Assembly (NCBI GenBank): GCA_958296035.1
Contig: OY282431.1
Span: forward strand, 1,181,001-1,245,000
Source: Paracoccaceae bacterium
GTDB lineage: Bacteria; Pseudomonadota; Alphaproteobacteria; Rhodobacterales; Rhodobacteraceae
Direction: 5' to 3'
DNA: 64,000 nt
A program made the translations under genes and the position numbers. Below the pieces are notes generated by a model, which was given only the letters and a program-made list of their open reading frames with translations, was not told the DNA's origin and did no database searches. Positions 30,278 to 55,708 of the stretch are shown here, one piece after another. Within the stretch, counting starts at the first letter, position 1. Each line of letters opens with the position of its first letter.

Positions 30278-30429
30278 AGGGTCCGGCAGCTAAAGCACGG
30301 GATAGGGCGGCCACATTTCCCGGGCCGTTGGTCGCTATTCAACAGGCCCATAGACTAGTCAAATTGTGGTCTTGCCCGGCCTGGCTATAGGGCGTGGCCG
30401 GGAGTTCAGCAGGCAGGGTGACAGAGATA

Positions 30430-35984: not shown

Positions 35985-36041
35985 GGAACACCGGACTGCG
36001 AGTGAGACCGCAGGCTGGTCGAAAGGAAAAGGGAACTGAGA

Positions 36042-38653: not shown

Positions 38654-39055
38654 CTGCCACATCTATCTTTTCAGTATTCTGCGAACGTCGAAAAGTGGGT
38701 TGACTTGCAAGGCCTTTGCCAAATCTTGCGAGATTCTACGGCGGCGACCGGCGTGTTTCCACTTGCAGGTATCCGTGTCCGTGCAGTGCGCTGTGACCAC
38801 TGGGAAATCGCCGATGGCAGTCTCGAGATGGGCTTCATCGACATAATCGTACGCGTTAGGGGTGGTCGGCCGCTTGTCATACGGCAGCAGGCCTGTCAGG
38901 CAATCTTTGACGATGCGAAGGAATATCTTGCCTCTGTTCTGGATCAAAAGCCTCTGGCTCTGTCTCTGGAAATGCGAGATATTGATCCTGAACTTAGTCC
39001 CAGGGCGAGTTCAATCAGAAGATTCCTGGGGAGAGTAGAAGAGCATGTCGCTTGA
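38654..39055 (+). CDS. hpaF: 5-carboxymethyl-2-hydroxymuconate delta-isomerase (CTG start)
   Basis: A 133-residue tautomerase-family enzyme isomerising 5-carboxymethyl-2-hydroxymuconate in homoprotocatechuate breakdown. TGVFPLAGIRVRAVRCDHWEIADG and LALSLEMRDIDPELSPR are family segments. The N-terminus reads (start)-PHLSFQYSANVEKW: the proline directly after the start is the catalytic base and must be terminal after Met removal. That places the start at CTG 38654, 8 bases after GGAG and 3 bases after an in-frame TGA. No ATG, GTG or TTG fits. The 3' end overlaps hpaE by 11 bases. If initiation at CTG is poor, expression is low. Confidence 0.82.
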   Translation: MPHLSFQYSANVEKWVDLQGLCQILRDSTAATGVFPLAGIRVRAVRCDHWEIADGSLEMGFIDIIVRVRGGRPLVIRQQACQAIFDDAKEYLASVLDQKPLALSLEMRDIDPELSPRASSIRRFLGRVEEHVA

Positions 39056-40559
39056 CGAAAACCTGCGGGCAGCAGCACCGATTCTCGCATCGCTGCAGGA
39101 ACATGGCGTACACCACCATATTGGTGGAAAGAAAGTGCAGTCACAGGACTGTGCCAGTTTCGAATCCCTTAGTCCGGTGGATGGCAGCACGATCTGCAAA
39201 GTGTCTGCAGGAGGGCGGGCCGAAATAGACTCCGCCTCGGCTACTGCCGGACAGGCTTTTGATAAGTGGTCTCGACTGGATGGCAGTGCACGAAAAACAA
39301 TCCTGCATCGCATTGCGGATCTGATAGTGGCCAATGCAGACCGGATTGCGCTCCTCGAGAGTTGGGACACAGGCCAACCCATACGGTTCATGTCAAAGGC
39401 TGCCGTAAGGGGAGCAGAAAACTTCCGGTTCTTTGCCGACCGAGCCCCGGGCGCTCGAGATGGTCAGTCGCTACCTTCACCAACTCTTCTGAACCTAACC
39501 ACAAGAGTTCCTATTGGACCGATCGGGGTTATCACGCCGTGGAACACCCCCTTCATGTTGTCTACCTGGAAGATCGCGCCGGCATTGGCGGCTGGATGCA
39601 CGGTTGTACACAAGCCGGCCGAGTTGGCGCCATTGAGCGCAGCTGTGCTGGTTGAGCTTTGTGAAGAGGCAGGACTTCCGCCTGGCGTGCTCAATGTAGT
39701 TCACGGTACTGGGCACCAGGCAGGAGTTGCGCTGACTGAACATTCGGATATCCGCGCCATCGCCTTTGTAGGAGAGAGTGCGACCGGCTCCGATATCATG
39801 CGCCAGGGGGCGGCAACCCTGAAACGCGTGCACTTTGAACTGGGAGGCAAGAACCCGGTCCTTGTATTCGATGATGCCGACCTGGAGCGCGCCCTAGACG
39901 CAGCTATTTTCATGATTTTTTCCCTCAATGGTGAGAGATGTACATCCTCCTCCAGACTCCTTGTGCAGGAGAGCATCTCGCAATGGTTTGTCGACAGATT
40001 GATCGAAAGAATTCGGCAGATAAGGATTGGCCATCCCCTTGATCCAGAAACCGAAGTTGGCCCGTTGATTTGCGAACAGCACGTCGACAAGGTGATGTCA
40101 TATATTGACCTCGCTCGTAAAGAGGGTGCAGAGATTTCCGTCGGTGGACAACGCAAGGCAGGCAATGGCTGCTATGTACTCCCGACCCTGCTTACCAATG
40201 CCACCCGACACATGCGTATTTCCCGGGAAGAAATCTTTGGTCCGGTTCTTACCGTCATTTCATTTTCCGACGAGGATGAAGCGTTGGCGATCGCCAACGA
40301 AGTGCGGTACGGGTTGGCCGGGTATATCTGGACGCGTGATCTCAGCCGCGCACTACGTGTGTCCGATCGCCTGCAGGCGGGAATGATCTGGGTCAATTCC
40401 GAAAATGTTCGCCATTTGCCAACCCCGTTCGGGGGAACAAAGGATAGCGGCATCGGACGGGATGGCGGCGACTGGTCGTTTGAGTTCTACATGGAACAAA
40501 AGCATATCGGGCTGGCAACCGGAAATCATGCCATTCCGAAACTCGGGAAGGTAAAATAG
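39045..40559 (+). CDS. hpaE: 5-carboxymethyl-2-hydroxymuconate semialdehyde dehydrogenase
   Basis: A 504-residue NAD-dependent aldehyde dehydrogenase. Catalytic Cys299 is in NGERCTSSSR, Glu265 in FELGGK, and Asn167 in TPWNTPF. It oxidises the semialdehyde produced by HpaD. Assignment to HpaE rests on neighbours hpaF and hpaD as well as on the PWNTPFMLSTWK and GCTVVHKPAELAP segments common in this group. The ATG lies inside the hpaF end; two bases separate its stop from the GTG of hpaD. Confidence 0.87.
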   Translation: MSLDENLRAAAPILASLQEHGVHHHIGGKKVQSQDCASFESLSPVDGSTICKVSAGGRAEIDSASATAGQAFDKWSRLDGSARKTILHRIADLIVANADRIALLESWDTGQPIRFMSKAAVRGAENFRFFADRAPGARDGQSLPSPTLLNLTTRVPIGPIGVITPWNTPFMLSTWKIAPALAAGCTVVHKPAELAPLSAAVLVELCEEAGLPPGVLNVVHGTGHQAGVALTEHSDIRAIAFVGESATGSDIMRQGAATLKRVHFELGGKNPVLVFDDADLERALDAAIFMIFSLNGERCTSSSRLLVQESISQWFVDRLIERIRQIRIGHPLDPETEVGPLICEQHVDKVMSYIDLARKEGAEISVGGQRKAGNGCYVLPTLLTNATRHMRISREEIFGPVLTVISFSDEDEALAIANEVRYGLAGYIWTRDLSRALRVSDRLQAGMIWVNSENVRHLPTPFGGTKDSGIGRDGGDWSFEFYMEQKHIGLATGNHAIPKLGKVK

Positions 40560-40561
40560 CG

Positions 40562-41545
40562 GTGCCTCCCATTGAGCCAGTACTGTACCCTCGGTTCAAT
40601 ATTCTGCGCACCAGTCATATCGAGTTGACTGTTGAAGACCTTGCTGCGTCACGTCGCTTCTATGCCGACATTCTCGGCATGGTCGTTTCGGAGGAGACAA
40701 CATGTGGTCGCCTCTATCTGCGAGCAATGGAGGAGCGGGGGCACCACAGTCTGTGCCTGCGACAGGGGACGCCGGCGAAATGTTCCGTAATTGGTTTCAA
40801 GGTGTTCGATAACCAGGATCTTGACCGCCTCGACAAGTTCTTTGTCGGTCACGGACTTTCAACAGGCTTTGCTAAACGCCCACACATGGGAAGGGTACTT
40901 CGTGTTACTGATCCCTGGGGCGTTCCCCTTGAGTTCTATGCTAGCATGGAGAGGTTGCGTCCGATACATCAGCAGTACCGCTTGTACGGTGGTGTAAAGC
41001 CACTACGCATCGATCACGTCAACCTGTTTTCCCCGGACGTTGACGCGGCAGTTGCCTTTTACAATTCCCTGGGATTCCGGCTAACCGAATATACCGAGGA
41101 TGAGGAGACAGGCCGCATGTGGGCCGCCTGGTTACAGCGTAAGGGTACCGTCCACGACATTGCATTCACAAATGGCAAGGGGCCACGTCTTCACCATCTT
41201 GCCTACTGGGTCATGTCGCCGATGAGCATCATTGACCTGCTCGACCTGATGTCGACATCGGGTTACCTGGCACATATCGAGAGAGGACCGGGAAGGCACG
41301 GCATTTCCAATGCCTTTTTTCTCTATGTGCGGGACCCGGACAATCATCGCATCGAGTTTTACTGTTCAGATTATCAGACTGTCGATCCGGATCACGAACC
41401 GATCAAATGGGACCTGCATGATCCGACTCGCCAGACCTTGTGGGGTGCTCCCGCTCCTCGCTCCTGGTTTGAGGAGGGCACAGCGTTTGAGAATGTTGAA
41501 GTTCTGAAACCGGTGGTAGCCGGAACGCCAATTGTGGCGCCGTAA
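40562..41545 (+). CDS. hpaD: 3,4-dihydroxyphenylacetate 2,3-dioxygenase (extradiol, VOC fold)
   Basis: A 327-residue extradiol dioxygenase with two VOC modules. The iron ligands are His152 (IDHVNLFSP), His211 or His212 (LHHLAYW) and Glu265 (HRIEFYCSD), at the spacing of homoprotocatechuate 2,3-dioxygenase. It opens the ring of 3,4-dihydroxyphenylacetate between C2 and C3 in the cytoplasm. The C-terminal WGAPAPRSWFEEG extension that closes the active site in this family is present. The start is GTG two bases after hpaE; no ATG alternative precedes the first conserved strand. Confidence 0.88.
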   Translation: MPPIEPVLYPRFNILRTSHIELTVEDLAASRRFYADILGMVVSEETTCGRLYLRAMEERGHHSLCLRQGTPAKCSVIGFKVFDNQDLDRLDKFFVGHGLSTGFAKRPHMGRVLRVTDPWGVPLEFYASMERLRPIHQQYRLYGGVKPLRIDHVNLFSPDVDAAVAFYNSLGFRLTEYTEDEETGRMWAAWLQRKGTVHDIAFTNGKGPRLHHLAYWVMSPMSIIDLLDLMSTSGYLAHIERGPGRHGISNAFFLYVRDPDNHRIEFYCSDYQTVDPDHEPIKWDLHDPTRQTLWGAPAPRSWFEEGTAFENVEVLKPVVAGTPIVAP

Positions 41546-41557
41546 GGAGGCTGGCCG

Positions 41558-42409
41558 ATGCGGTATGCAAGTTATTGGTACGGCGGCAAGCCAGGTTTCG
41601 GATTGGTTTCAGGCAGTGGAATAATCGATCTTTCCAGGCGCTTTCCACGATTTGCGAGCCTCAGGGAATGCCTTGAACTTGGAGTGCTCGACACCTTGGC
41701 AGCGCAATGTTCCGACTTCGAACCCGACCACGGAATCGAAGACGTTCAGTTTGATTTGCCGGTTCCCTTCCCCGAGAAGATCATATGCGTCGGAATTAAC
41801 TATCCGGCACGAAATGAGGAATACAGGGACGGGTCCTCGACACCCGGGTATCCCTCACTCTTTGTAAGGTTCCCCGGTTCACTGGCGGGTCATCGTTGCC
41901 CGATCGTGTGTCCAGAAGAGTCCGACATGCTGGACTATGAGGGAGAGTTGGCGCTGGTGATCGGCATCGGTGGCAGGCGTATCAAGGAACAGGATGCGTT
42001 GAAACATTTGGCAGGGCTGTCCCTATGCAACGACGGCACGGTCCGGGATTGGGCAAGACATGCAAAATTCAACGTGACGCAGGGCAAGAATTTTGACAAT
42101 TCGGGTTCGATGGGGCCATGGTTGGTGCGTTATCAGCGACCGGAACAACTGACCGACATTCAGCTCACTACACGGATCAATGGCGAGGTCAGACAGCAAG
42201 ACAGAACGGGGCGAATGCTGTTTTCGCCATCTCGCCTGATCGCCTATATTTCTGCGTTTACAACGCTGAAGCCTGGCGATGTGATCGTCACGGGAACCCC
42301 GGTTGGTTCAGGTGTCAGATTGACCCCGCCGAAATTCTTGCAACCGGGTGATGTCGTCGAGGTGAGTGCCACCGGCATCGGTCGTCTCGAAAACACGGTT
42401 GTCACATGA
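41558..42409 (+). CDS. hpaG: Fumarylacetoacetate hydrolase family protein (HpaG-like isomerase/decarboxylase)
   Basis: A 283-residue FAH-fold enzyme. IICVGINYPARNEEY, the metal-binding DYEGELALVIG and NDGTVRDWARH are visible. In this operon it should carry out the 5-oxopent-3-ene-1,2,5-tricarboxylate decarboxylase and/or 2-hydroxyhepta-2,4-dienedioate isomerase step. It is a single FAH module, whereas enteric HpaG is a fused double one. The ATG has a perfect AAGGAGG 8 bases upstream. The 3' end overlaps hpaH by ATGA. A generic acylpyruvase is the alternative. Confidence 0.82.
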   Translation: MRYASYWYGGKPGFGLVSGSGIIDLSRRFPRFASLRECLELGVLDTLAAQCSDFEPDHGIEDVQFDLPVPFPEKIICVGINYPARNEEYRDGSSTPGYPSLFVRFPGSLAGHRCPIVCPEESDMLDYEGELALVIGIGGRRIKEQDALKHLAGLSLCNDGTVRDWARHAKFNVTQGKNFDNSGSMGPWLVRYQRPEQLTDIQLTTRINGEVRQQDRTGRMLFSPSRLIAYISAFTTLKPGDVIVTGTPVGSGVRLTPPKFLQPGDVVEVSATGIGRLENTVVT

Positions 42410-43224
42410 CGAGGGCACTGACAGATAGCGAGGTCGCTACCGTTGCCGCTCGCCTCTACCAAGCCGAGAAATCCGGCATTCAGACCAGTCTGCCGTCACT
42501 GGATTTTCCTGGCATGACAATGGACGATGCCTACCGCATTCAAAACGAATTGATAAGGTACAAGGTTGCCGCTGGGGAAAGGCCCGTTGGACACAAGATC
42601 GGGTTGACTTCACGGGCCATGCAACGTGCCCTTGGTATCGATATTCCCGATAGCGGCGTTCTGTTCGATACCATGTTGGTGAACAACGGGAGTACTGTGG
42701 AGCGAGGCCGTTATATCGAGCCCCGCGTAGAAGCCGAGATTGTGTTCGTCATGGGGCACGAACTGGCCGCCGGGAATCTCACACGCCAGGATGTCGTGAA
42801 GGCGACCAGTTACGTTTCGCCAGCCCTGGAAGTCGTTGACACCCGCGTGTTTCGCAAGGATCCTGCGACAGGAACTGCCCGCAATGTCCTGGATACGATC
42901 GCTGACAATGCTGCCAATGCCGGCCTTGTGATTGGGCCCTCTCGACACGCAGCGGACAGTGTGGATTTGAGATGGATTGGATCAATTGTCCGTCGGGATC
43001 GAATTGTCGAGGAAACCGGACTGGGCGCCGGAGTTCTCAATGATCCATTTACCTCGGTAATCTGGCTAGCCCGCCGCCTGGCAAGATTTGGGCAACCTAT
43101 CCAGCCCGGAGACATCGTTCTTTCGGGAAGCTTTGTCCGCCCCGTGGAAGCGCCCCCGGGAAGCAGCTTCGAAGCCGACTTCGGTGCGTTCGGCAAGGTG
43201 GAGGTGGCGTTTGAACGAGGATGA
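42406..43224 (+). CDS. hpaH: 2-oxo-hept-4-ene-1,7-dioate hydratase
   Basis: A 272-residue hydratase of the MhpD/HpaH family. GHKIGLTSRAMQRALGI, IPDSGVLFDTMLV and RVEAEIVFVMG are conserved. It adds water to the 2-oxohept-4-enedioate made by the preceding enzymes. The ATG overlaps the hpaG stop. The aldolase HpaI and the monooxygenase HpaBC that would complete and feed the pathway are not in the window. Ends 7 bases from the convergent phosphatase gene. Confidence 0.88.
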   Translation: MTRALTDSEVATVAARLYQAEKSGIQTSLPSLDFPGMTMDDAYRIQNELIRYKVAAGERPVGHKIGLTSRAMQRALGIDIPDSGVLFDTMLVNNGSTVERGRYIEPRVEAEIVFVMGHELAAGNLTRQDVVKATSYVSPALEVVDTRVFRKDPATGTARNVLDTIADNAANAGLVIGPSRHAADSVDLRWIGSIVRRDRIVEETGLGAGVLNDPFTSVIWLARRLARFGQPIQPGDIVLSGSFVRPVEAPPGSSFEADFGAFGKVEVAFERG

Positions 43225-43231
43225 GGTTGCG

Positions 43232-44071
43232 TCAGGCTGTTTGCCGACTCATGGTCATTGGACCGGTGGCGGGATTGAACACCCTGTTCGACAAATCGCA
43301 AAGCACCTTGGCAATACCCGGTGCCGCAGCAAGAACCGGACCACCTCGAGATAACATCCGTGCCAGGTTCAGATCGATTGTGCATCCCCCGGCTTCGTCG
43401 ATGATTAGCAAGGACGCAAGACAGTCCCAGGCGTTCAGGTGACGCTGCGCGTAGCCGATGAATCGTCCGTCGGCCACGTAGGATAGCCCTAGTGCTGCTG
43501 AACCAATGCACGCAAACTTGCCCCCTTGCGCCATAAGCCTGGTGATCATTGTCGGTACAACGTTGGTTACATGACTTGACGAAGTATCCAGACCTACAAG
43601 GCCACAGGTAAAATCGCCTGAAATCGCGCACTTGATGACTTTGTCGTTCAGGGATGCACCGCAATTGCGTCGGGCGTGGAATTGCTCGCTATGGACCGCA
43701 TCATTGACGACGCCTACTACTGTCTGGTTGCGATGCACAATCGCAATCACCACGCACCACATCGGAATACCGTGTACGAAATTGGCGGTACCGTCGATGG
43801 GATCAATGACCCAGAGAAAGTCGGAATTGCTGGATTTTGATGCGCAAAACTCCTCACCGATGACACCATCCCCTGGAAAGCGTGAAGCCACTTCGCGCCG
43901 AATGAACAGTTCGACATCACGATCTGCCTCGGAAACCAGGTCTTGTGGCCCCTTGGATTCGATGCGAAGGTCTCTGTAGCGGCAAAAGTAATCCTCCGCA
44001 CGCCGACCGGCCTGTGCAGCAATGTCTCTTGCTCCGTCATATCTCTCGGCGATCTCGCTGTTTGAAGTCAC
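43232..44071 (-). CDS. Inositol monophosphatase family protein
   Basis: A 279-residue Mg-dependent phosphatase. Metal ligands lie in GEEF (Glu73/74) and DPIDGTANFVHG (Asp90, Asp93), with a late WDCLASLLIIDEAGG motif. Related enzymes dephosphorylate inositol monophosphate, 3'-phosphoadenosine 5'-phosphate or sugar phosphates. The start is GTG overlapping the amidotransferase stop (GTGA), so the two are one transcript. Why a phosphatase is tied to an amidotransferase is not evident; dephosphorylating a gamma-glutamyl product or a phosphorylated alcohol is conceivable. Confidence 0.87.
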   Translation of the reverse strand: MTSNSEIAERYDGARDIAAQAGRRAEDYFCRYRDLRIESKGPQDLVSEADRDVELFIRREVASRFPGDGVIGEEFCASKSSNSDFLWVIDPIDGTANFVHGIPMWCVVIAIVHRNQTVVGVVNDAVHSEQFHARRNCGASLNDKVIKCAISGDFTCGLVGLDTSSSHVTNVVPTMITRLMAQGGKFACIGSAALGLSYVADGRFIGYAQRHLNAWDCLASLLIIDEAGGCTIDLNLARMLSRGGPVLAAAPGIAKVLCDLSNRVFNPATGPMTMSRQTA

Positions 44072-44826
44072 GCTGCCTCTCCTGCACCGAAGGCACTGTC
44101 AAAAAATGTTGCAATCCACCCTCCAAATTCAAGACCTTGTGCCGGTTCCTTCAATTGAGCAAGAAATTCGGACTCCTGTTCGCTGGTAAGTTCATCGGAC
44201 AGATGCGCAATCAACTGTTTCATGAATTCTTCTGACATTTCAGGATGGTGTTGGGTGGTCATCACATGCGAGCCAATGACAAATGCAGAGAATGGGCAAT
44301 TGTGGCTTGTTGCGACGGGGATTGCGGTCGCCGGAAGCTGATGAATCTGTTCACTATGCGCGGTGTAAAGTCTGATTGTCTCACGATTCGATGGCCTCCA
44401 GCTTGAATCATGGCTGTAGGTCGATATGGCCACACCCAAGGACCATTTCGGGCCGGGGTTTTCTTCAACTCGTCCCCCGAGGGCCTTGGCGATGGCCTGG
44501 TGACCGAAACAACACCCAAACAAAGGAATTTTCAGCTTGTCCAGCGAAACAATCAGCTTCAGCAACCCATCTACCCATCTGTGCTCACCGTTGACCGACG
44601 CCGGGCTGCCGGTAATTACATAGCCGTCAAAGTCACCGGGTTCACCCGGAATCTCCTGTTCGGCAACATTGACAGTCTCGTACACCCAATCGGGTCGATA
44701 TTGGCCGAGCAACCGCCGGAATTTTTCGTCATCACTGGGAAACCTTGATGCGAATTCGGACTTGTCGTTACTGGTCAGAAGTATTCCAATTCGCACAAGA
44801 ATCTCGAAAGCAAGTAGTTTGTTCAT
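44068..44826 (-). CDS. Class I glutamine amidotransferase-like protein
   Basis: A 252-residue stand-alone class I amidotransferase domain. The nucleophile is Cys106 in GCCFGHQAIAKALGG and the dyad His194-Glu196 lies in TTQHHPE. GYVITGSPASVNG is typical of the GMP-synthase-like or YfeJ group. Relatives hydrolyse gamma-glutamyl bonds (PuuD-like, AtdA2/TdnT of aniline degradation). It diverges from a P450 and glutamine-synthetase-like gene 400 bases away, hence a proposed role in removing the glutamyl group. The ATG at 44826 has a weak ribosome site; a GTG ten codons inside is possible. Confidence 0.85.
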   Translation of the reverse strand: MNKLLAFEILVRIGILLTSNDKSEFASRFPSDDEKFRRLLGQYRPDWVYETVNVAEQEIPGEPGDFDGYVITGSPASVNGEHRWVDGLLKLIVSLDKLKIPLFGCCFGHQAIAKALGGRVEENPGPKWSLGVAISTYSHDSSWRPSNRETIRLYTAHSEQIHQLPATAIPVATSHNCPFSAFVIGSHVMTTQHHPEMSEEFMKQLIAHLSDELTSEQESEFLAQLKEPAQGLEFGGWIATFFDSAFGAGEAA

Positions 44827-45224
44827 ATTGTTCGCTCGTCATACTGGCACATTGGGCGCCGCGCGTAAATCAGCCTGCCGGCTTTGGCGCCTGATCCATC
44901 TCCGGGCCCAGCTGCGGCTGGCGCGATTCCACACAGAGATGGAAGTCTCCCGTAGAGCCGAGGATTCCTGCAACCGATGCGGTTTGAGAGTTCACTGGAA
45001 GGTTGCGCAATGCACTCCAGGGACAGATTATTCGAGCAGCAGTGAAGCCAAATGGCTTAGGTGGCTCAGCGAGGAAGGTCACACCGAGGCATGTTAGGCG
45101 AGGGGCTGGCATGGATGGGTGGGTCTGGATGTTCGACAATTGACTCATTGGACAGAGAATTGTGGCAAGATTTGTGAAGAGGTAATGACGATTGGGCAGA
45201 AACCGGGCAGGAAGCTGAATAAGA
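44827..45224. other. Divergent promoter interval, amidotransferase / P450
   Basis: These 398 bases separate two divergent transcripts. A TTGACT hexamer at 45140-45145 points to the P450 but its spacing to any -10 is poor. I see no clear operator dyad. One minus-strand frame in it (44870-45256) has no recognisable family. Confidence 0.4.
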
Positions 45225-46487
45225 ATGACGATCTGGAAGCCAAACGATGACGGCAATGCTGACCTGTCCAGCTACGACAGTTTCGTCACAGGGGTTCCGC
45301 ATAATACGTTTGCGCGTATGCGGAAGGAGGCCCCCCTTGAGTGGTCGGAATGGGATGGCGGCGAGGGATTCTGGAACGTATCCCGCCACAAGGACATTCT
45401 AGCGCTCAACCGCAACTATGGATTACTTTCCTCTGCACGCGGTATCCGCATGGAAGATCAGACTTACGAGGAATACCTGGCGCGCCGGACATTTCAGGAA
45501 ACCGATCCGCCTGAGCATACTAGGGTGCGGCTGAAGGTGGCCAGAGCGTTTTCAAAGTCTACAATTTCCCGGTTTGAAGACCAGATCAGGCAGATTTGCA
45601 TCAAGATTCTGGGGCGGACACTGTCGGCCGGCGAATTCGACGCTACCCAGGACATCGCCCGCCAGCTTCCCATGCGTATGCTCGGGAGAATTCTAGGTCT
45701 ACCGGAACAGGATCTGGAATGGCTCGTCACCAAGGGAGATGCTCTGATAGCTAACACCGATCCAGACTTCACTGATCACGTTCTTGACCAAATGACCAGT
45801 GATGAATTCCGCATGATGCCATTCAATTCACCGGCAGGCGCCGAACTCTACACATACGCCAGGCAACTTATGCGGGAAAGGGAGCAGAGAGGAGATACCG
45901 ACGGAATTCTTCACATGATGCTGCAACCGGATGAAAGCGGAAGCGTCATTAGTGATCGTGAGTTCAGGAATTTTTTCTGCCTACTTGTTGCGGCCGGTAA
46001 CGATACGACTCGCTATTCAATCGCAGCTGCCATCCATGCTCTATGCCACCAGCCGCATCTCCTGTGCCAATTGCGTAAAAGTGGAAGCGAGATCTGGGAG
46101 ACTGCTACGGATGAATTCATCAGATGGGCATCGCCCACCATGCATTTTCGGAGAACCGCGACCAGGGATTTTGAAATGCATGGCAAGCTCGTGCGTGCAA
46201 ATCAAAAGATCCTGTTGTGGTTCGTATCAGGCAACAGGGATGAAGAGGCGTTCAACAATCCATTCAACATTGATCTGTACCGTTCTCCCAATCGTCATCT
46301 GGCCTTCGGGCAAGGAGGCCCTCACATCTGCCTTGGCATCTGGCTTGCCAGACTTGAGGTCAAAGTATTGCTGCAGGAATTGGTCAAACGCGTGGCAACC
46401 ATCGAGGCGAACGGCGAAATTGCGTATCTGAGGTCAAATTTCATCGGTGGTATCAAATCGCTGCCGGTGAAGATAACGGCACTCTGA
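45225..46487 (+). CDS. Cytochrome P450 (CYP124/125/142-like)
   Basis: A 420-residue soluble P450. The I-helix oxygen motif AGNDTTR lies at 257-263, the K-helix ExxR at Glu297-Arg300, and the haem thiolate Cys369 in FGQGGPHICLG, with the extra residue seen in the CYP124/125/142 group. ETDPPEHTRVR is the C-helix region. It needs two electrons through a ferredoxin; a [2Fe-2S] ferredoxin is encoded two genes downstream, but no reductase. Substrate unknown. The group prefers branched alkyl chains, while the neighbours suggest an amine or glutamyl conjugate. The proposed ATG follows AGGAAG at a distance of 9 bases. Confidence 0.92.
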   Translation: MTIWKPNDDGNADLSSYDSFVTGVPHNTFARMRKEAPLEWSEWDGGEGFWNVSRHKDILALNRNYGLLSSARGIRMEDQTYEEYLARRTFQETDPPEHTRVRLKVARAFSKSTISRFEDQIRQICIKILGRTLSAGEFDATQDIARQLPMRMLGRILGLPEQDLEWLVTKGDALIANTDPDFTDHVLDQMTSDEFRMMPFNSPAGAELYTYARQLMREREQRGDTDGILHMMLQPDESGSVISDREFRNFFCLLVAAGNDTTRYSIAAAIHALCHQPHLLCQLRKSGSEIWETATDEFIRWASPTMHFRRTATRDFEMHGKLVRANQKILLWFVSGNRDEEAFNNPFNIDLYRSPNRHLAFGQGGPHICLGIWLARLEVKVLLQELVKRVATIEANGEIAYLRSNFIGGIKSLPVKITAL

Positions 46488-46524
46488 ATCGTTACAGGTT
46501 GAGGAAGTCGCGGGAGTTTATCGA

Positions 46525-47823
46525 ATGTCATTGGCCAAACGCAGGTTGCGCCTGCTGTTTTGCGACAATCTCAGCATTGCGAGAGGCAAGTATTTGCCGA
46601 ACTTTCAGTTGGAATCCGGGTCATCACGCTTCTGCCGATCAACATTTGGTGTGCATTATGACAAGGAATTGCTCAATGCGCCCGGAGCCATGATGATGGA
46701 GGGGTTGCCTGACATGGAGGCTCGCTATTTTCAGGAGGAAATCAGGCCGGGCTGGGAACCTAACATGAGCGTGGTCATCGGCGACTTGTACGACCATCTC
46801 GGTTATCCACTGGAACTTTGTGGTCGAAGAGCATTGAAACGTGCCGTGAGCGATTGGGGTGCACTGGATTTGACTCCAATTGTCGGCATCGAACTGGAGT
46901 GCTTCGCATTTACGCATGATGAATATGGGCGCATTATTCCCTATGCAACCCCGGGGGCAGTCGTATATGGGACGGGCGCATTCACCGACCCCCTCCGCTT
47001 TACCGAGGCAATCTGGGAAAAGGCCTGCGAACTTGGTTTCAGGCTCGAGATGATGACAGCCGAGTATGACGCGCCCCAGTTCGAGTTTACGCTTGGATGT
47101 GATACTGCTGTCAAGGCAGTGGACGATATTTTCCTGTTCCGGCTTATGGCGCGCGAGTTGGCACTTGAGTATGGTGTTCTCCTGTCATTCCTGCCCAAGC
47201 CGCTGGCAACCGGCGGAGGGTCCGGGATGCATATAAACCTGTCGTTTCGAACTGCTGACGGACAGAATGCGCTGGCACTTGAGGACGGGAACATCACTGA
47301 AGAGGTTAATGAGCTTGCGAGGGGTTGCTTGTCGGGGTTCATGCACCATCATAGAGGACTTGCGGGTCTCCTGGCTCCAACGGCAAACTCTTATGGGCGG
47401 CTGCAACCTGCCAGCCTGTCCGGATACTGGCAGAACTGGGGAGGCGATCATCGGGGCGTAACGGCGCGCGTGTCAACCGAAAGGGGAAACAAGGCTCGCC
47501 TGGAACACCGAATGGCAGATTGTTCAGCTAATCCATATGTTGCCGTAGCCGCGGTATTGCAGGCAGCCCGACTGGGAGTCGCTAACGGATATCCGCTCCA
47601 GCCGGCAGAAACAGGGGACTGCTTTGACCAGGTTGATGCCAGGATCGGGGTTGCCCCAAACCTGAACAAGGCCATGGCTGACCTTGAAAAGGACAGGGCG
47701 CTGACTGAGGCGGTGGGGCAGATGCTCGTAGACAATCTGGTATTCATGAAGCGCAAGGAACACCGCAAGACCAGGGACCTGGAAGGCGAAGAACTTCGCG
47801 ACTTTTACATTCACTTTATATGA
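46525..47823 (+). CDS. Glutamine-synthetase-like gamma-glutamyl ligase
   Basis: A 432-residue enzyme of the glutamine synthetase fold. Glu123 and Glu125 (GIELECF) are metal ligands, and GSGMHINLS, NSYGRLQP, the RVSTERGNKARLEHR arginine block and ANPYVAVAAVL follow. The divergent N-terminus and lack of an adenylylation loop point to the PuuA/IpuC/AtdA1-type gamma-glutamylamide ligases rather than housekeeping GlnA. It should join glutamate to an amine with ATP. Between P450 and ferredoxin genes, it suggests the amine is glutamylated before or after oxidation. GGGAG precedes the ATG by about 8 bases. Confidence 0.88.
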   Translation: MSLAKRRLRLLFCDNLSIARGKYLPNFQLESGSSRFCRSTFGVHYDKELLNAPGAMMMEGLPDMEARYFQEEIRPGWEPNMSVVIGDLYDHLGYPLELCGRRALKRAVSDWGALDLTPIVGIELECFAFTHDEYGRIIPYATPGAVVYGTGAFTDPLRFTEAIWEKACELGFRLEMMTAEYDAPQFEFTLGCDTAVKAVDDIFLFRLMARELALEYGVLLSFLPKPLATGGGSGMHINLSFRTADGQNALALEDGNITEEVNELARGCLSGFMHHHRGLAGLLAPTANSYGRLQPASLSGYWQNWGGDHRGVTARVSTERGNKARLEHRMADCSANPYVAVAAVLQAARLGVANGYPLQPAETGDCFDQVDARIGVAPNLNKAMADLEKDRALTEAVGQMLVDNLVFMKRKEHRKTRDLEGEELRDFYIHFI

Positions 47824-47836
47824 GGAAATTTAGGCC

Positions 47837-48151
47837 ATGCCGACGATAACATGGAAGACTTCAGAGACCGAGTCGATTACGGCAAATGTGCCGGTTGGCA
47901 TAACGCTAATGGAAGCCGCCGTCCGCAACAATGTGCCGAGAGTGTGGGGTGAGTGTGGCGGGTGTCTGTCCTGTGCCACATGTCATGTAAGGCCCGTGGG
48001 CGAATGGTTTGGAAGGTTGGGGTTTCCAAACGACATGGAGGACGACATGCTTGATTTCACGGAAGTTGAGAGAGAAGACGACAGCAGACTGTCCTGCCAG
48101 ATCAAGGTGACAGAGGAATTTGACGGATTGGTCCTGGTCGTGCCTGAGTAG
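47837..48151 (+). CDS. [2Fe-2S] ferredoxin of adrenodoxin/putidaredoxin type
   Basis: A 104-residue ferredoxin. The cluster ligands are Cys40, Cys46, Cys49 and Cys87 with the C-x5-C-x2-C-x37-C spacing of adrenodoxin-type proteins. Such ferredoxins feed cytochrome P450s, and the P450 is in the same operon, 13 bases downstream of the ligase gene. An extra Cys43 is present. A ferredoxin reductase must be supplied from elsewhere. Confidence 0.92.
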   Translation: MPTITWKTSETESITANVPVGITLMEAAVRNNVPRVWGECGGCLSCATCHVRPVGEWFGRLGFPNDMEDDMLDFTEVEREDDSRLSCQIKVTEEFDGLVLVVPE

Positions 48152-48608: not shown

Positions 48609-49550
48609 CTACTGCGTAAGCATCTGCTCAATTCTTGCGAGTGTTTCGATATCACTGGCGATACGTGCAGCAGATTCTTCCTCGCTCTGCCAGTACACAA
48701 TTGCACCGGTGTTCTCACTGTGCTCAGCCGCGCGGTCACCTAGCATTGACTTCTTGGCAGACGCGATGATTTTGGCTCGCACGTCAGCAGGTGTCTCCTT
48801 TGTTACGAAAAGCCCGTTCCAGAGCGATATTCCTAACTCCGGAACGAGTTCTCCAATCGTTGGTGCATTGGGTGCCTTTACGATTCTGTCATCCGTAATG
48901 GACGCAAGAATGGTAATGTGGTCGAGGCAGGGAAACACAAGCTGGATGGTGGTATTGACCACATCGGCGTCACCGGATGCCAACGTGTTACAATCTATTG
49001 CATCGAATGCCGAGTCCGCGGCATAACTCCAGCCGTTCACTTTTGCGAACGCCTTTGTAACTTGGGTGGGTGCCAGAACGTCACCGAAGTGCGCCAATGT
49101 GACATCGTTTTCCTTGGCATATTCGCTCAGCTCAGCCATTGACTGATAGGGCGCTGACTTGCTGGTAGCAATGATAAACGGGTAAGTGAGGAAAATTCCG
49201 AGCGGGTCGAATTTGGCAGGCGTCAATTCGTCAATTCCAATTTGGTGACCAAGCGTAGGAACGCCGATCACAAATGAGCCAATCGTGTATCCGTCAGCGG
49301 GTGCCTGGGCAACCTCAATGGCACCTGGAAACGGTCCACCGCCACCGCCTGGTTTGTTCACGACAGCGGCCGAGACGCCAAACTTGTTCTGAAAGTCCTC
49401 AGCAATGATCCGCGTGAGCACGTCTTCGGAGTCACCTGGGGGGAAAGGGACAATAAAGGTCACTGGTTTTTCCGGATATTCAGCGATAGCCTGCCCGGCT
49501 ACAGTTGTGAATGCAATGAGAGCAATCGCAATTGTCGATAGTATTTTCAT
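48609..49550 (-). CDS. tctC: Tripartite tricarboxylate transporter substrate-binding protein (TctC/Bug)
   Basis: A 313-residue periplasmic receptor with a signal peptide (residues 1-23, cut after AIA). YPEKPVTFIVPFPPGDSEDVLTR and VNKPGGGGGPFPGA are the classic Bug-family segments. It delivers a carboxylate or related anion to the TctAB membrane part. It is on the opposite strand to tctB and tctA, which start 740 and 2967 bases further on, an unusual arrangement. The two cysteines (DAIDC, VFPC) may form a disulfide. Confidence 0.9.
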   Translation of the reverse strand: MKILSTIAIALIAFTTVAGQAIAEYPEKPVTFIVPFPPGDSEDVLTRIIAEDFQNKFGVSAAVVNKPGGGGGPFPGAIEVAQAPADGYTIGSFVIGVPTLGHQIGIDELTPAKFDPLGIFLTYPFIIATSKSAPYQSMAELSEYAKENDVTLAHFGDVLAPTQVTKAFAKVNGWSYAADSAFDAIDCNTLASGDADVVNTTIQLVFPCLDHITILASITDDRIVKAPNAPTIGELVPELGISLWNGLFVTKETPADVRAKIIASAKKSMLGDRAAEHSENTGAIVYWQSEEESAARIASDIETLARIEQMLTQ

Positions 49551-50290
49551 TTCTAGAAAGTCTCCCGGTTGTGTATGTTGAAGGGTTTTCCGGTGGGGAC
49601 AGTCCGCTCCTGCAGGCTGGTTCTATAATTCGGCAGCTCGCGAATTGACTCGACAAACCCGCCAATCTCCCCACTGTTTGATTGGTATTGGCTCCGCCGA
49701 AGGAAACAACAGGTTACAGGACAATGGCCTTTCCTTCAATTCTCCTTGGAGCCTTTGGTGCGCCAGAGTTCGCGCTGACTGCCAGTTGGATTGCCATGCT
49801 GGAATGCTGACCTCTTCCGTATTAGTAGTGCTCAATCGTGTACCCAACGCTGCATCCGAGAGCACTCACCGGCCCTGCGTTCCACAACTGCGTCCGGACT
49901 GTCAACGACATGTGGACTGGATTGTCACTTCAAAATTCGGTTTCAGTCAGTCCGGTCCAATGACAGGCTTTTCGTTGGCTGGCAGCATGGCAACGGGTGT
50001 GAATGCTCTTGTGCGGCCAGGTGCAGGAAACTGCCAGGTGGGATTGTGCACGGTCAGCCTTCAATCTCAAAGTGCACGTTTCGGCAGGTTGGAACCGGAT
50101 CACAATGCTGCCTGAATTTCTGTCAGAGCAGTCGCGGAAGGTTTCGGCTTTGGACAATCTCTGCCTCTTTCCGGTCAAATAGAACGGGACCGGTCGTGTC
50201 CTGAATGCTTGGTCTTTGCCTGACAGGAGGCTGTTCGGTATTGGAGCACGGCAGCGCAAGCGAAGATCGTTGGTATTGGAATGCCGAAAT
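49551..50290. other. Gene-free interval between divergent tctC and tctB
   Basis: No gene with a recognisable family is seen in these 740 bases. It must hold the promoters of tctC (minus) and tctB (plus), but I cannot place them. Short frames are present on both strands without start sites or homology I recognise. Confidence 0.45.
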
Positions 50291-50821
50291 ATGTCTGGAG
50301 GGATTATTGATCCTGGGCGAAAAAAGGCCAGAGGCCAGTTCTTGTTTGCACTGGCTTTTGTGGTCCTGGGAGTTGCGCTGGCGGTCCAACTTCCGTTTCA
50401 GACTACCTGGCTTGAAGATACGTCTGTCTTCGTTCAGCCAAGATTCATGCCGACTGTCGCCATTATCGGCATGGTACTGTTCGGCTGTCTCCATTTGTGG
50501 TTCCTGCCCAGACGGAGAATTGTACGCTCGGACTGGGGCGAGGTAAGGGTCTGGGTCTCAGGGCTGGAATTCGTTGCCTGGTACATGGTCTATGTATTTA
50601 TTGTACCTGTGGCCGGTTACCTCGCGACAACCGTGGTATTCTGCTGGTTGTTGGTCTTGCGCATGGGTTACAACAGTCGACGAATTCACTGGTTTTCAGT
50701 GCTTTTCGCTGCAGCCGTTGTTATCGTGTTCAAAACGCTGCTGAAGGTCAAGATTCCGGGGGCCGCGGTATATGAGCTGCTCCCTCCGCTGTTAAGGAAT
50801 TTCCTAATCGTCAATCTCTAG
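50291..50821 (+). CDS. tctB: Tripartite tricarboxylate transporter small membrane subunit (TctB)
   Basis: A 176-residue inner-membrane protein with four hydrophobic segments (starting around residues 18, 57, 97 and 137). PRFMPTVAIIGMVLFG and the YLATTVVFCWLLVLRMGY segment are typical of TctB, the small subunit that packs against TctA. ATG at 50291 is chosen because the first membrane segment follows 18 residues later; the frame extends to 50216. Ends 40 bases from a convergent DjlA-like gene that separates it from tctA. Confidence 0.82.
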   Translation: MSGGIIDPGRKKARGQFLFALAFVVLGVALAVQLPFQTTWLEDTSVFVQPRFMPTVAIIGMVLFGCLHLWFLPRRRIVRSDWGEVRVWVSGLEFVAWYMVYVFIVPVAGYLATTVVFCWLLVLRMGYNSRRIHWFSVLFAAAVVIVFKTLLKVKIPGAAVYELLPPLLRNFLIVNL

Positions 50822-50860
50822 ATTATCGACTGCGTGGTCGCCCGGACGCGTTTTCTTGGA

Positions 50861-52516: not shown

Positions 52517-54121
52517 ATGGACATTGTGCTGGCGGGCATGGAAGTTCTCATGCGATGGGACGTGCTGGCGGCGATCCTTGTGGGCTCCATTGGCGGCGTG
52601 GTCATTGGTGCAGTGCCTGGAGTTGGACCAGCGGTCGCTATCGCTATCTTGCTTCCCGCCACCTTTTCTCTGGATCCGATCGTCGGACTGACGATGCTCC
52701 TGGGGATTTACGGCTCGAGCATGTATGGCGGTGCAATTCCAGCCATTCTCATCAACACACCCGGAACGCCAGTCAACGCGTTGACCACCTATGAAGGCTT
52801 TCCGATGACCTTGCGCGGTGAGGCAAGGCGGGCATTGAGTTTGGCTTATGCTTCGTCGTTTTTTGGAGGCGTCTTTTCGGTAGTATGCCTGATACTCTTG
52901 TCTCCTGTACTGGCAAGAGTTGCCCCACTGTTTGGTTCTCGAGAGATTTTTCTGGCTGCTGTTCTGGGAATTATCCTGGTCATTGTGGCTCACCGTGGCC
53001 AGACTCTGGTTGCCGGCATGCTCGCATGCCTCGGAATGCTGCTTAGCACCGTCGGGCTTGAACCGAGTCAGTACACGGGCAGGTTCACATTTTCGCAAGC
53101 CTGGCTGGTCAATGGAATTGACTTGATCGTCGTTGTCCTCGGGCTGTTCGCGATCAGCCAGTCTTTCTTCCTCATGCGGGGATACGACGAAAAAATCAGA
53201 ATCAGCAAGGTGAGAGGCGGTCTCTTCCAGGGCTTCAGAGAGTTGGTACGCCACCCCCGCGTGGCAACAACTTCTGGAATGTTCGGCGTTGTCATGGGGA
53301 TCATTCCCGGGGTGGGGGAATTTACCGCGCAGTTCATGTCCTATACAACGGCCCGACGGTTGTCGAAGCGTCCCAACACCTTTGGACACGGTTCTTCCGA
53401 AGGGCTGATTGCGTCTGAAACTGCAAACAATGCTGTTCCAGGTGCGGCCATGATTCCGTTGCTGGCACTGGGCATACCCGGTGAGGCTCTAACTGCCATG
53501 ATGCTGGCCGTATTCTATGTGCATAACGTTGTGCCCGGGCCAGGGCTGTTCCTGTATCAGCTGGATTTCGTAACAGCACTGTTCCTGGCCTTGCTCGTTC
53601 TTAACGTAGTTGTGGTGGTCTTCCTGTTGTTTGCAACCAACCTCCTGGTTCAACTGGTTAGAATTCCCTCCAGATTCTTGGGTGTGTGCATTCTTGTACT
53701 CAGCTTTGTAGGGGTATACTCCTTGCGCAATAGCCCTACAGACTGCGCCATTGCAGCCGTGTTCGGTTTGATCGGGTTCATTCTCAGGCGGTTAGAATTG
53801 CCGATTATCCCCATTGTACTGGGAATGGTGCTTGGCGGCATCATGGAGGTCAAGCTGCGCAGTTCGATGGCGCGGGTCAAGGACCCACTGGACTTGATCG
53901 AGCGACCAGTGGCGGCAATAATCTTTGGGCTCATACTCCTGGTGCTGGCCCTTCATTTGCGGAGAGTAATTGTCGATTGGTCGCCGCCTGGGGAATGGAA
54001 GTGGACCAGCAAGAAGGCAAAGACGGCCTTTGGCAGGGGCTTGTGGAAGCGCCGGACGGATCTCCTGCATCGGCGTGAAAGAGCACTCAGAAAGCGCCGG
54101 TCAATGTTTGATCGCAATTAG
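52517..54121 (+). CDS. tctA: Tripartite tricarboxylate transporter large membrane subunit (TctA)
   Basis: A 534-residue inner-membrane permease with about twelve hydrophobic segments. GVVIGAVPGVGPAVAIAILLP near residue 25 and YGGAIPAILINTPGTP near 74 are the conserved TctA glycine motifs. The second repeat shows GMIPGVGEFTAQF-like and ALGIPGEALTAMMLAVF segments. The ~40-residue basic C-terminal tail (KRRTDLLHRRERALRKRR) is longer than usual. The ATG follows AGGAG by five bases. It is separated from tctB by the DjlA-like gene, so it needs its own promoter. Confidence 0.9.
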   Translation: MDIVLAGMEVLMRWDVLAAILVGSIGGVVIGAVPGVGPAVAIAILLPATFSLDPIVGLTMLLGIYGSSMYGGAIPAILINTPGTPVNALTTYEGFPMTLRGEARRALSLAYASSFFGGVFSVVCLILLSPVLARVAPLFGSREIFLAAVLGIILVIVAHRGQTLVAGMLACLGMLLSTVGLEPSQYTGRFTFSQAWLVNGIDLIVVVLGLFAISQSFFLMRGYDEKIRISKVRGGLFQGFRELVRHPRVATTSGMFGVVMGIIPGVGEFTAQFMSYTTARRLSKRPNTFGHGSSEGLIASETANNAVPGAAMIPLLALGIPGEALTAMMLAVFYVHNVVPGPGLFLYQLDFVTALFLALLVLNVVVVVFLLFATNLLVQLVRIPSRFLGVCILVLSFVGVYSLRNSPTDCAIAAVFGLIGFILRRLELPIIPIVLGMVLGGIMEVKLRSSMARVKDPLDLIERPVAAIIFGLILLVLALHLRRVIVDWSPPGEWKWTSKKAKTAFGRGLWKRRTDLLHRRERALRKRRSMFDRN

Positions 54122-54466
54122 CCAGAATCTGTTTATCGGTTGATCTTGCGTGCCGGACGCGAATATTCGTAACAGCGCGGGAAGGTTAACCTATCTTCCT
54201 TCTCCCTCGGCTACTCGTGGTTCACAGGGCTTAAGGCAGCCAGCCCCGGGCTTACCAGGTCAGTTCGTGGCCACGCAGTTGTCGGATGTTGGTAACCAAT
54301 CCGACTCTGGGCAATTAAATCGGTCGGATTGTCATTCACAATGGTTTTGATCCTGGAATTGGCTAATGTGTCGCTGGTCGCCTATTCCGGGATGCGAGCA
54401 AATGGAATTCAGCAGGTTCACTTGAGGAGAGATCCTGGAGTCTCCTCACGCAGATAGGGTTATTGC
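54122..54466 (+). other. Gene-free interval between tctA and Tm-1-like gene
   Basis: I see no gene, RNA or clear terminator in these 345 bases. Confidence 0.45.
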
Positions 54467-55708
54467 ATGCGAAATCCCAGAATTCTCGTCGTCGGAACCT
54501 ATGATACAAAGTGTGACGAGCTTGAATTCATGGCGCACTGCATCAGGGCTGCCCAAGGACAGGTCCTTGCGATGGATGTCGGCGTGCTCGGCAGCTCGCC
54601 GCCGGCTGTTCACGTTCGCCGTGAGCAGGTCGCTTCGGCAGGGGGCAGCAATATCGAGGACGCTGCCGTCTGTGGTGACGAGAACACGGCCATGCAAATA
54701 ATGGCGCGTGGAGCCAGTCAATTGGCTGCCGAGTTGGCAACGTCGCGGGCTATTTCCGGAGTCATCATACTCGGTGGCACCATGGGTACGGATTTGGCGC
54801 TAGATATTTGTCAGGCGCTGCCCGTTGGTTTCCCGAAGCACATCGTTTCCACGGTCGCGTTTTCGCCCTTGATCCCACCGGCGCGAATTGCCGCAGATGT
54901 TCAGATGACATTGTGGGCAGGCGGATTGTATGGATTGAACTCGATTTCCAGGACCTCTCTCAGTCTGGCATCAGGTGCAATTGTCGGTGCCGCCCGTGCC
55001 GTTAGCCCCCAGGTAAAACGCCCTGTGATCGGCATGACGAGTTTTGGGTCCTCAGTGCTTTCCTACATGATCCATCTCAAACCCGGGTGCGAGGCACGCG
55101 GATTTGAACTCGCGGTATTCCATGCCACAGGAATGGGGGGAAGAGCATTCGATGCCCTGGCGGCCTCTGGCCATTTTGACTGCGTAATGGATTTCGCGCC
55201 GCAGGAGATCACAAATCTTGTATTCGGTTCGGCATTGAGTGCAGGCGAAAGCAGGATGCAAGGGGCGGGGAAATCAGCTACTCCCCAGATTGTTGCGCCC
55301 GGTTGCATTGACCTCATCGACTATCCTGCCTGGCAGCCCATACCAGAGAGATTTCGGGATCGGGAATTTCACGATCACAATAGGCTCATTCGCTCCACAG
55401 GGCTTACGCCGGTTGAGCGAAGAATTGTCGTTGACGAAATCTGCTCCAGGATAGGGCAGGGTCGCGGACCCGTGGCGGTTATCCTGCCCCTCAAGGGTAT
55501 CCAGGGTTGGGACAGAGAGGGCCAGCCATTTCATGATCCGGCTGGGCTGAAGGACATGATCTCGGCATTTCGGGAGCGAGCGGTCGAGCCGATTTCACTC
55601 AATGAAGTTGACGCACACATCAACGATGTCGAATTTGCGGAGTGTGCCCTGTCAATCCTCGACGCATGGTGCAGGGATGGGACGGTTAAGGCACCGCCTG
55701 TCAATTGA
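54467..55708 (+). CDS. Tm-1-like ATP-binding domain protein (UPF0261)
   Basis: A 413-residue protein. ILVVGTYDTKCDELEFMA at the start, VIILGGTMGTDLALDICQALPVG in the middle and FHATGMGGRAFDALAASGHFD identify the Tm-1/UPF0261 family, related to the N-terminal part of tomato Tm-1. The late VAVILPLKGIQGWDREG is also typical. Biochemical role is not established; in bacteria these genes often accompany a phosphoenolpyruvate-hydrolase-like TIM-barrel gene, absent here. It may have been co-inherited with the adjacent tct transporter. No signal peptide. Confidence 0.85.
   Translation: MRNPRILVVGTYDTKCDELEFMAHCIRAAQGQVLAMDVGVLGSSPPAVHVRREQVASAGGSNIEDAAVCGDENTAMQIMARGASQLAAELATSRAISGVIILGGTMGTDLALDICQALPVGFPKHIVSTVAFSPLIPPARIAADVQMTLWAGGLYGLNSISRTSLSLASGAIVGAARAVSPQVKRPVIGMTSFGSSVLSYMIHLKPGCEARGFELAVFHATGMGGRAFDALAASGHFDCVMDFAPQEITNLVFGSALSAGESRMQGAGKSATPQIVAPGCIDLIDYPAWQPIPERFRDREFHDHNRLIRSTGLTPVERRIVVDEICSRIGQGRGPVAVILPLKGIQGWDREGQPFHDPAGLKDMISAFRERAVEPISLNEVDAHINDVEFAECALSILDAWCRDGTVKAPPVN

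Follow-up and report, generated by a model that had tools for sequence, protein, structure and literature searches.

A conserved gene set of cytochrome P450, glutamine-synthetase-like ligase and amidotransferase in Rhodobacterales, with a possible role in arylethylamine catabolism

Gene content of the locus

We discuss here a group of genes in a 64,000-nucleotide stretch of DNA (the window) from Paracoccaceae bacterium (GenBank assembly GCA_958296035.1, contig OY282431.1, positions 1,181,001 to 1,245,000), the genome of which is a single 3.64 Mb contig (G000; G and L numbers refer to genomes and loci respectively). An initial annotation, made from the sequence alone, had described five genes in which a class I amidotransferase (GAT) and a phosphatase diverge from a cytochrome P450, a glutamine-synthetase-like ligase (GSL) and a ferredoxin, with a homoprotocatechuate (hpa) operon adjoining. 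That layout is confirmed: all five are intact open reading frames at the positions in Table 1, and their families are confirmed by Pfam and NCBIfam. HpaE and HpaD of the neighbouring operon, both upstream of the module, pass their NCBIfam equivalog cut-offs. The P450, GSL and GAT genes form the core of a conserved module, and the role that we propose for it, with a confidence just short of even, is the catabolism of an arylethylamine, most likely tyramine, by way of gamma-glutamylated intermediates that would lead into the hpa ring-cleavage pathway.

Conservation of the module

In the species-genome collection 508 relatives were found at a tblastn E value of 1e-3 or lower, from which the best 80 loci were kept, and 31 further loci (L016-L018, L099-L106 and L149-L168) bring the total to 111. 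These loci are related to each other, many are ended by contig edges, and L034 and L037 share one ligase sequence. Among loci with room, that is those whose stretch could hold the neighbouring gene, the P450 gene is directly upstream of the GSL gene and on the same strand in 106 of 109 (78/79 for the best 80 and 28/30 for the further 31), and GAT is within 4.5 kb of GSL in 101 of 108 (78/78 and 23/30 respectively). The ferredoxin gene is directly downstream of GSL in 56 of 78 cases for the best 80 and in 10 of the further 31. P450 and GSL remain neighbours where ligase identity is down to 48-60%, in different families and, in the case of G592 (L149), in another class.

Linkage of P450, GSL and GAT beyond chance is thus well supported. 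The initial annotation had held that these three belong together, and had named a lack of conservation of the neighbours in related genomes as the finding that would count against it; the survey of the 111 loci bears out the first and gave no sign of the second. It remains to consider that the genes are chance neighbours with separate roles, as the phosphatase indeed seems to be, but the P450-GSL pair persists at the ligase divergence given above, across families and in one other class. For P450, GSL and GAT this explanation is refuted, and for the locus as a whole we find it very hard to credit.

With regard to distribution, the ligase is present in 62 of 390 sampled Rhodobacterales genomes (E 1e-80 or lower), in 9 of 385 genomes of a draw from the class (E limit 1e-60) and in 5 of 398 of a draw from the phylum (E limit 1e-80), the window's own genome being included in both of the last two counts. 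The module thus belongs chiefly to the Alphaproteobacteria.

The ligase is in a clade of its own

Among solved structures GSL is nearest to a glutamate-methylamine ligase (9qur, E 2e-34), and most of the next matches are glutamine synthetases. When GSL is aligned with the GlnA protein of the window genome the metal and glutamate motifs GIELE, AEYDAPQFE, GSGMH and EHR are seen to be kept, while PGFEAP of GlnA is replaced by PASLSGYW and FDGSSI is gone; we take PGFEAP and FDGSSI to be the Glu-flap and the Asp50 motif respectively. PMC11335346 describes the loss of these Glu-flap and Asp50 residues in ligases that act on organic amines and not on ammonia, and by the criteria given there the combination found in GSL, of metal and glutamate motifs kept and Glu-flap and Asp50 lost, is that of a glutamyl-organic-amine synthetase (GoaS). 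By its motifs GSL is an organic-amine-type ligase, and gamma-glutamylation is its predicted activity.

The ligase tree has 34 rows. Those of the module, 19 in number with L015 and L106 being one gene, are monophyletic with support of 100/99, and are separate from the GlnA, GlnT-type, AtdA1-type and PuuA-like rows, although three of the rows outside the clade have long branches. The tree covers none of the four GSL paralogues of the window genome, which were compared in the motif alignment only. The AtdA1-type rows, from pNB8c and Achromobacter, fall elsewhere than the module clade, the pNB8c ligase being called AtdA1-type from its Rieske oxygenase and amidotransferase neighbours. With the NCBIfam models GSL scores 158 bits for GGputSyn (PuuA), for which the cut-off is 650, and 144 bits for GlnA, for which it is 429.

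Three assignments can therefore be rejected: GlnA, because the ammonia-type catalytic motifs are lost and the clade is separate; PuuA, because of the low GGputSyn score and again the separate clade; and the AtdA1 type, because of the position in the tree. The description of the ligase as PuuA/AtdA1-type in the initial annotation has to be given up, and the grouping with housekeeping GlnA that would have told against its proposal is seen neither in the motifs nor in the tree.

P450 and ferredoxin

The P450 has as its best solved relative the protein named CYP125MRCA (8vxi), followed by CYP268, CYP126 and CYP124. We aligned it with 107 full-length matches (n=108, identity down to 55%, rows with a stop in the match being excluded), and in two stretches, 68-96 and 164-206, the limits of which were set after the profile was seen, 44 of 72 positions are at least 97% conserved, compared with 60 of 287 outside these stretches and the core motifs. 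The two stretches include 13 near-invariant charged residues, R75, E77, D78, R87, R88, K170 and R196 being among these. From the alignment we take the stretches to lie in the B-C and F-G substrate-recognition regions, and in the alignments, as judged by eye, they differ from those of CYP125MRCA, CYP268, CYP126 and CYP124. Charged regions that are nearly invariant would suit a single polar substrate common to all of these enzymes, for example a glutamyl amide, more than they would a steroid or lipid. A role as a steroid or lipid hydroxylase of the CYP124/125 kind is rejected, as the likeness is one of clan only and the substrate-recognition regions are different. Of the earlier description as CYP124/125/142-like, what stands is membership of the same clan as CYP124/125, and nothing closer.

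It had also been suggested that the P450 takes the place of the Rieske dioxygenase of aniline degradation, and the ten proteins scanned from 36042-48151 include the P450 and ferredoxin and have no Rieske domain. In L099 the gene next after the ferredoxin is for a flavoprotein with Pyr_redox_2 and Reductase_C domains, and homologues are in the same position in L100-L102.

Amidotransferase and transaminase

GAT has gamma-glutamyl peptidase 1 as its best solved relative, and is 36.7% identical over 150 amino acids (E 8e-26) to the amidotransferase of pNB8c, where ligase, amidotransferase and Rieske oxygenase genes are neighbours. The Cys motif (GCCFGHQ) and the His-Pro-Glu motifs are invariant in the 7 module GATs that were aligned. 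The view of it as an AtdA2-like amidotransferase is thus supported by its resemblance both to the peptidase and to a protein of an aniline-type cluster.

The presence of GAT is correlated with that of a class III transaminase. Orthologues of both (E 3e-72 or better for GAT and E 1e-120 or lower for the transaminase) are present in 9 and absent from 5 of 14 genomes (p=0.0005), which were hand-chosen to span the clade and included five already known to show neither gene in the fetched stretch. Such co-presence is expected if GAT frees an amine that is used by the transaminase. It suggests two types of cluster, type A with GAT and transaminase and type B (G165, G263, G340, G037 and G660) with neither. 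The Novosphingobium locus L018 has neither gene within its 25 kb, the rest of that genome not having been searched for them.

Association with hpa and decarboxylase genes

HpaD is over the cut-off in 54 of the 62 Rhodobacterales genomes with the module. In a draw of 380 genomes from the same order HpaD was found in 114 (112 over the cut-off), 53 of which have the module. It is thus present in 53 of about 59 genomes that have the module, whereas of those that lack it (about 321) 61 have HpaD (p=6e-26, relatedness not removed), the totals being approximate because the module genomes G1101, G1104 and G1106 are apparently outside the draw. The tie to homoprotocatechuate proposed in the initial annotation is therefore supported by a statistically strong association. 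In L018, L099-L102 and L150 the P450 and GSL genes are in or next to an operon with genes for a LigB-type dioxygenase, an HpaE-like dehydrogenase and a protein of the fumarylacetoacetate hydrolase family, and the LigB-type proteins of L018 and L102 are closest to HpaD_Fe although under its cut-off (130 and 142 bits respectively, against 316).

A second gene, for a LigB-type protein 33-37% identical to that of Novosphingobium, accompanies HpaD in the hpa loci L039, L057, L078, L088, L094, L203-L205, L207 and L212. An acetoacetate-decarboxylase-like gene is present in or near the clusters of L099-L102, L018 and L150, and may replace a late hpa step; the copy in L102 resembles MppR of enduracididine biosynthesis (165 bits, under the cut-off of 380).

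The link to an aromatic amine comes from genes for aromatic L-amino acid decarboxylases, present in 21 of the 111 loci, in line with P450 and GSL in L099, L100 and L102. Among the type B genomes G165, G263, G340 and G037 (L099-L102), three of the four have the decarboxylase gene in the cluster. Among hpa loci a decarboxylase gene is found in 12 of 20 from genomes with the module and 2 of 20 from those without (p=0.002), the loci having been chosen by hand, not at random, from the 54 and 61 HpaD genomes respectively, with two of the stretches ended by contig edges. Among solved structures these enzymes are most like DOPA, aromatic amino acid and tyrosine decarboxylases. The catalytic-loop Tyr, active-site His and pyridoxal phosphate Lys are kept in the four that were aligned (L030, L031, L102 and L167), and we take these residues to separate decarboxylases from aldehyde synthases. 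In the module-less hpa loci L183-L185, L189, L190, L192 and L198 the position that the decarboxylase gene often has in genomes with the module is occupied by an extra aldehyde dehydrogenase gene.

These associations bear on the possibility that the substrate is a non-aromatic amine, methylamine-like or polyamine-like, and that the tie to hpa is one of shared ecology only. The closest solved relative of GSL is after all a glutamate-methylamine ligase, and the transaminase homologue in the window lies beside arginase-family, solute-binding and ABC genes in what looks like a polyamine cluster. However a non-aromatic substrate leaves the associations with both HpaD and the decarboxylase to be explained, and also the operons of other members of the class in which P450-GSL is joined with genes for extradiol dioxygenases (L018, L099-L102 and L150), and we consider it improbable.

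Proposed pathway

For tyramine as substrate we suggest the following pathway, in which the reactions, their order and the substrate are predicted from gene families, motif loss, linkage and co-occurrence. GSL would use ATP to join the gamma-carboxyl group of glutamate to the amine, and the P450, fed by the ferredoxin, would hydroxylate the amine so masked, with the ring as the most likely site (gamma-glutamyl-tyramine to gamma-glutamyl-dopamine). With glutamate in place the amine nitrogen would be kept from the haem iron and the catecholamine from cyclising, and the enzyme would have a charged handle. The glutamate would then be removed by GAT, the amine converted to 3,4-dihydroxyphenylacetate by the class III transaminase and an aldehyde dehydrogenase, and the ring cleaved and degraded by HpaD, HpaE and the later hpa enzymes. 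In many relatives the aromatic amino acid decarboxylase of the hpa operon would make the amine from tyrosine. Ring hydroxylation of tyramine to dopamine is favoured because it best accounts for the presence together of a decarboxylase for aromatic amino acids, a P450 and a pathway that cleaves catechols.

Several observations weigh against this pathway. With regard to the module itself, no P450 gene was detected upstream of the ligase gene in L075 and L151, only a C-terminal P450 remnant is left just before it in L167, and there are the type B clusters without GAT and transaminase. HpaD is missing in 8 of the 62 module genomes, in one of which (G1083, L167) there is a LigB-type gene in the operon instead. 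The window has no orthologue at threshold of the decarboxylase or of a PuuC-type aldehyde dehydrogenase, the rest of the genome not having been searched for them. The L102 decarboxylase is closest to DOPA decarboxylase, and if DOPA is the substrate ring hydroxylation is not needed. The paa (phenylacetate) genes adjoin 16 of the 111 loci, none of which shows hpa genes in the fetched stretch. Lastly there is HpaB, which is over the family cut-off in 5 of the 62 module genomes and in 5 of the 61 that have HpaD but lack the module. HpaB is thus scarce in the group in general, which is no sign that the P450 fills its place, and with this control the idea that replacement by the P450 accounts for the lack of HpaB is not upheld. 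Indeed G222 and G117 have an HpaB gene 2-3 kb from the ligase gene, that of G117 being a true HpaB-1 (541 bits, cut-off 480). The window genome has one match to the HpaB_N family, which we also count here, but at 224 bits for HpaB-1 (cut-off 480) and 158 for HpaB-2 (cut-off 885) it is far under the equivalog cut-offs and decides nothing.

Some of these observations would be accommodated if the masking were the same but the substrate another arylethylamine, such as phenethylamine (with para-hydroxylation), dopamine, or a methoxylated phenethylamine (with O-demethylation). The linkage to paa and the resemblance of the L102 enzyme to DOPA decarboxylase favour this, and the true HpaB in the G117 cluster would provide the 3-hydroxyl group. 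However the 16 paa-linked loci are all in or near the Roseobacter group (Ruegeria, Tritonibacter, Leisingera, Phaeobacter, Epibacterium, Antarcticimicrobium and two metagenome-assembled genomes), and one of the genomes concerned, G908, which we take to be TM1040, also has an hpa operon with the decarboxylase gene on the same megaplasmid. We see a different arylethylamine as rather unlikely.

The type B clusters raise another alternative, in which the P450 hydroxylates the carbon beside the nitrogen, and the resulting N-dealkylation gives glutamine and an arylacetaldehyde, with GAT serving only to clear excess gamma-glutamyl amide. This would account for the clusters without GAT and transaminase orthologues and for the frequency of aldehyde dehydrogenase genes (42 of 80 loci), and a protective role is given to the aniline-pathway amidotransferase in PMC4539516. 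N-dealkylation would leave the transaminase needless, yet the transaminase is present in all 9 of the tested genomes with a GAT orthologue. While unlikely for the module in general, it is a live rival, above all for type B.

Returning to hydroxylation of the ring of tyramine, it may be that the P450 works only on gamma-glutamylated tyramine to yield dopamine, with the glutamate tag taking the molecule through the hydroxylation for which HpaBC, acting on 4-hydroxyphenylacetate, is the usual enzyme, and in type B, taken here as having no GAT or transaminase gene beside it and a LigB-type dioxygenase gene in or next to the operon (L099-L102, L018 and L150), even ring cleavage could act on the tagged catecholamine. 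We offer this tentatively, our doubts outweighing our confidence.

Accompanying genes

Table 1. Genes of the module and its surroundings in the window
Gene product	Position	Strand	Basis of assignment
GAT, class I amidotransferase, proposed gamma-glutamyl hydrolase	44068..44826	-	PF00117, 56 bits
Cytochrome P450, proposed hydroxylase of gamma-glutamylated amine	45225..46487	+	PF00067
GSL, glutamine-synthetase-like ligase, proposed gamma-glutamyl-amine synthetase	46525..47823	+	PF00120 (Gln-synt_C), 218 bits
[2Fe-2S] ferredoxin, proposed P450 electron donor	47837..48151	+	PF00111 (Fer2); fdx_isc 43 bits, cut-off 132
Inositol-monophosphatase-family (IMPase) phosphatase, local accessory, not core	43232..44071	-	PF00459
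HpaE, 5-carboxymethyl-2-hydroxymuconate semialdehyde dehydrogenase	39045..40559	+	TIGR02299, 762 bits, cut-off 638
HpaD, 3,4-dihydroxyphenylacetate 2,3-dioxygenase	40562..41545	+	TIGR02295, 396 bits, cut-off 321
HpaG-like fumarylacetoacetate hydrolase family protein	41558..42409	+	TIGR02303, 158 bits, well under cut-off 276
HpaH-like 2-oxo-hept-4-ene-1,7-dioate hydratase	42406..43224	+	TIGR02312, 344.5 bits, just under cut-off 351.5
Class III aminotransferase, homologue of module-adjacent transaminase of relatives	30394..31788	+	PF00202; 65% identity to TM1040 cluster aminotransferase
TctC, tripartite transporter (TTT) substrate-binding protein	48609..49550	-	PF03401; 73% to TM1040 cluster TctC
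TctB	50216..50821	+	PF07331; 51% to TM1040
TctA	52517..54121	+	73% to TM1040 cluster TctA
UPF0261 (Tm-1-like) protein, accompanies module	54467..55708	+	PF06792/PF23189; 55% to TM1040 cluster protein

The genes found with the module in the best 80 loci include those for a GntR regulator (66), TctA (51), the transaminase (49), a PuuC-like aldehyde dehydrogenase (42), a UPF0261 protein (38) and the aromatic decarboxylase (16). In the annotation of Ruegeria sp. TM1040 GntR is followed by GAT, which diverges from P450 and GSL (WP_011537325.1), and after these come FkbM methyltransferase, class III transaminase, IclR, TctCBA, aldehyde dehydrogenase and Tm-1-like protein; the paa genes are upstream. 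In the window the TctCBA and UPF0261 genes are at 48609-55708. The recurrence of the UPF0261 (Tm-1-like) protein with this block is a clue to its role.

At 29258-37466 in the window an arginase-family gene, the transaminase gene and genes for a solute-binding protein, ABC components and an aminobutyraldehyde-type dehydrogenase are in a row that resembles a cluster for polyamine uptake and breakdown. Its transaminase, with the identity to the module-adjacent one of TM1040 given in Table 1, is the sole match in the window genome at E 1e-120 or lower.

The block of transporter, transaminase and UPF0261 genes is not exclusive to the module, as parts of it adjoin hpa in the module-less loci L193, L195, L196 and L201, where Tct genes are beside hpa together with IclR, PuuC-like aldehyde dehydrogenase or UPF0261 genes, and in L195 also the transaminase gene. 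The Tct block thus seems to be linked to homoprotocatechuate on its own.

The phosphatase gene overlaps GAT by 4 bases, but at 100 bits was found in only 2 of the 111 loci (L019 and L156), and is rejected as a core part. That of L019 is in the same position as in the window, and beyond the ferredoxin of L156 and L157 there are IMPase-like genes that are only distantly similar (33% and 31% respectively). The set of genes first named was thus right for P450, ligase and GAT and wrong for the phosphatase, and was too small, as the real set extends to the transaminase, aldehyde dehydrogenase, TTT transporter and UPF0261 protein, and often the aromatic amino acid decarboxylase.

Comparison with known systems

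Glutamylation followed by oxygenation is known for aniline (PMC4539516) and 1-naphthylamine (PMC11335346), and in the first of these papers the aniline amidotransferase is described as reverting gamma-glutamylanilide to aniline, which limits toxicity, and not as releasing an oxidised product. The aniline system AtdA1-AtdA2-AtdA3A4A5 (also NpaA1 for 1-naphthylamine) is like the module in having a glutamine-synthetase-like ligase, a class I amidotransferase and an oxygenase that acts on the gamma-glutamyl amine. It differs in that the module has a P450 and ferredoxin in place of the Rieske dioxygenase, a ligase in a different clade from the AtdA1-type ligase of pNB8c, and also a transaminase and an aldehyde dehydrogenase, which imply a substrate with an alkylamine side chain.

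In the case of cyclic amines, the mycobacterial pipA and morA clusters presumably also include a glutamine-synthetase-like gene. The systems concerned (pipA of M. smegmatis, morA of Mycobacterium sp. HE5 and bioI/pipA of Gulosibacter) share with the module a P450 and ferredoxin used for amine utilisation, but their substrates are secondary cyclic amines, and the part of PMC9477822 consulted mentions no amidotransferase, hpa pathway or gamma-glutamylation for them. The same part reports that Gulosibacter molinativorax has two P450 genes, predicted to act on cyclic amines, with a "glutamine synthetase" gene at the next locus number, and the synthetase is interpreted there as being for ammonium assimilation (PMC9477822). 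The statement in the initial annotation that no system with this set had been described can be kept for the full set, which we did not find described, but has to be limited by this P450 and "glutamine synthetase" pair (PMC9477822).

Among the matches listed from the open-access PMC literature there is no report of the gene set or of gamma-glutamyl-tyramine or gamma-glutamyl-dopamine catabolism, which is weak evidence of absence. The glutamate-tag logic is known; what we put forward as new, since the papers listed do not describe it, is the gene set with the clade of its ligase, its P450 and the tie to homoprotocatechuate. The Ruegeria sp. TM1040 record has only the labels "glutamine synthetase family protein", "cytochrome P450" and "type 1 glutamine amidotransferase", and our analysis offers a coherent and testable role for a cluster present in 62 of 390 sampled Rhodobacterales genomes. 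If the proposal is true, glutamate-tag chemistry would extend from anilines and alkylamines to biogenic arylethylamines, homoprotocatechuate would also be reached by way of a P450 in a group that seldom has HpaB, and dopamine-type intermediates would be predicted in bacteria, many of them marine.

The isopropylamine pathway of Pseudomonas KIE171 (IpuC/IpuABDE/IpuF) reportedly has the same three-step logic of glutamylation, oxidation and hydrolysis, but for an aliphatic amine, and is said to end in alaninol with no ring cleavage. The ring-cleavage part is shared with the classic hpa pathway, as the window has HpaE and HpaD over their cut-offs with HpaH-like and HpaG-like genes adjoining. The difference is in the feed, which for the module would be an amine by way of gamma-glutamyl intermediates, and not 4-hydroxyphenylacetate by way of HpaBC alone.

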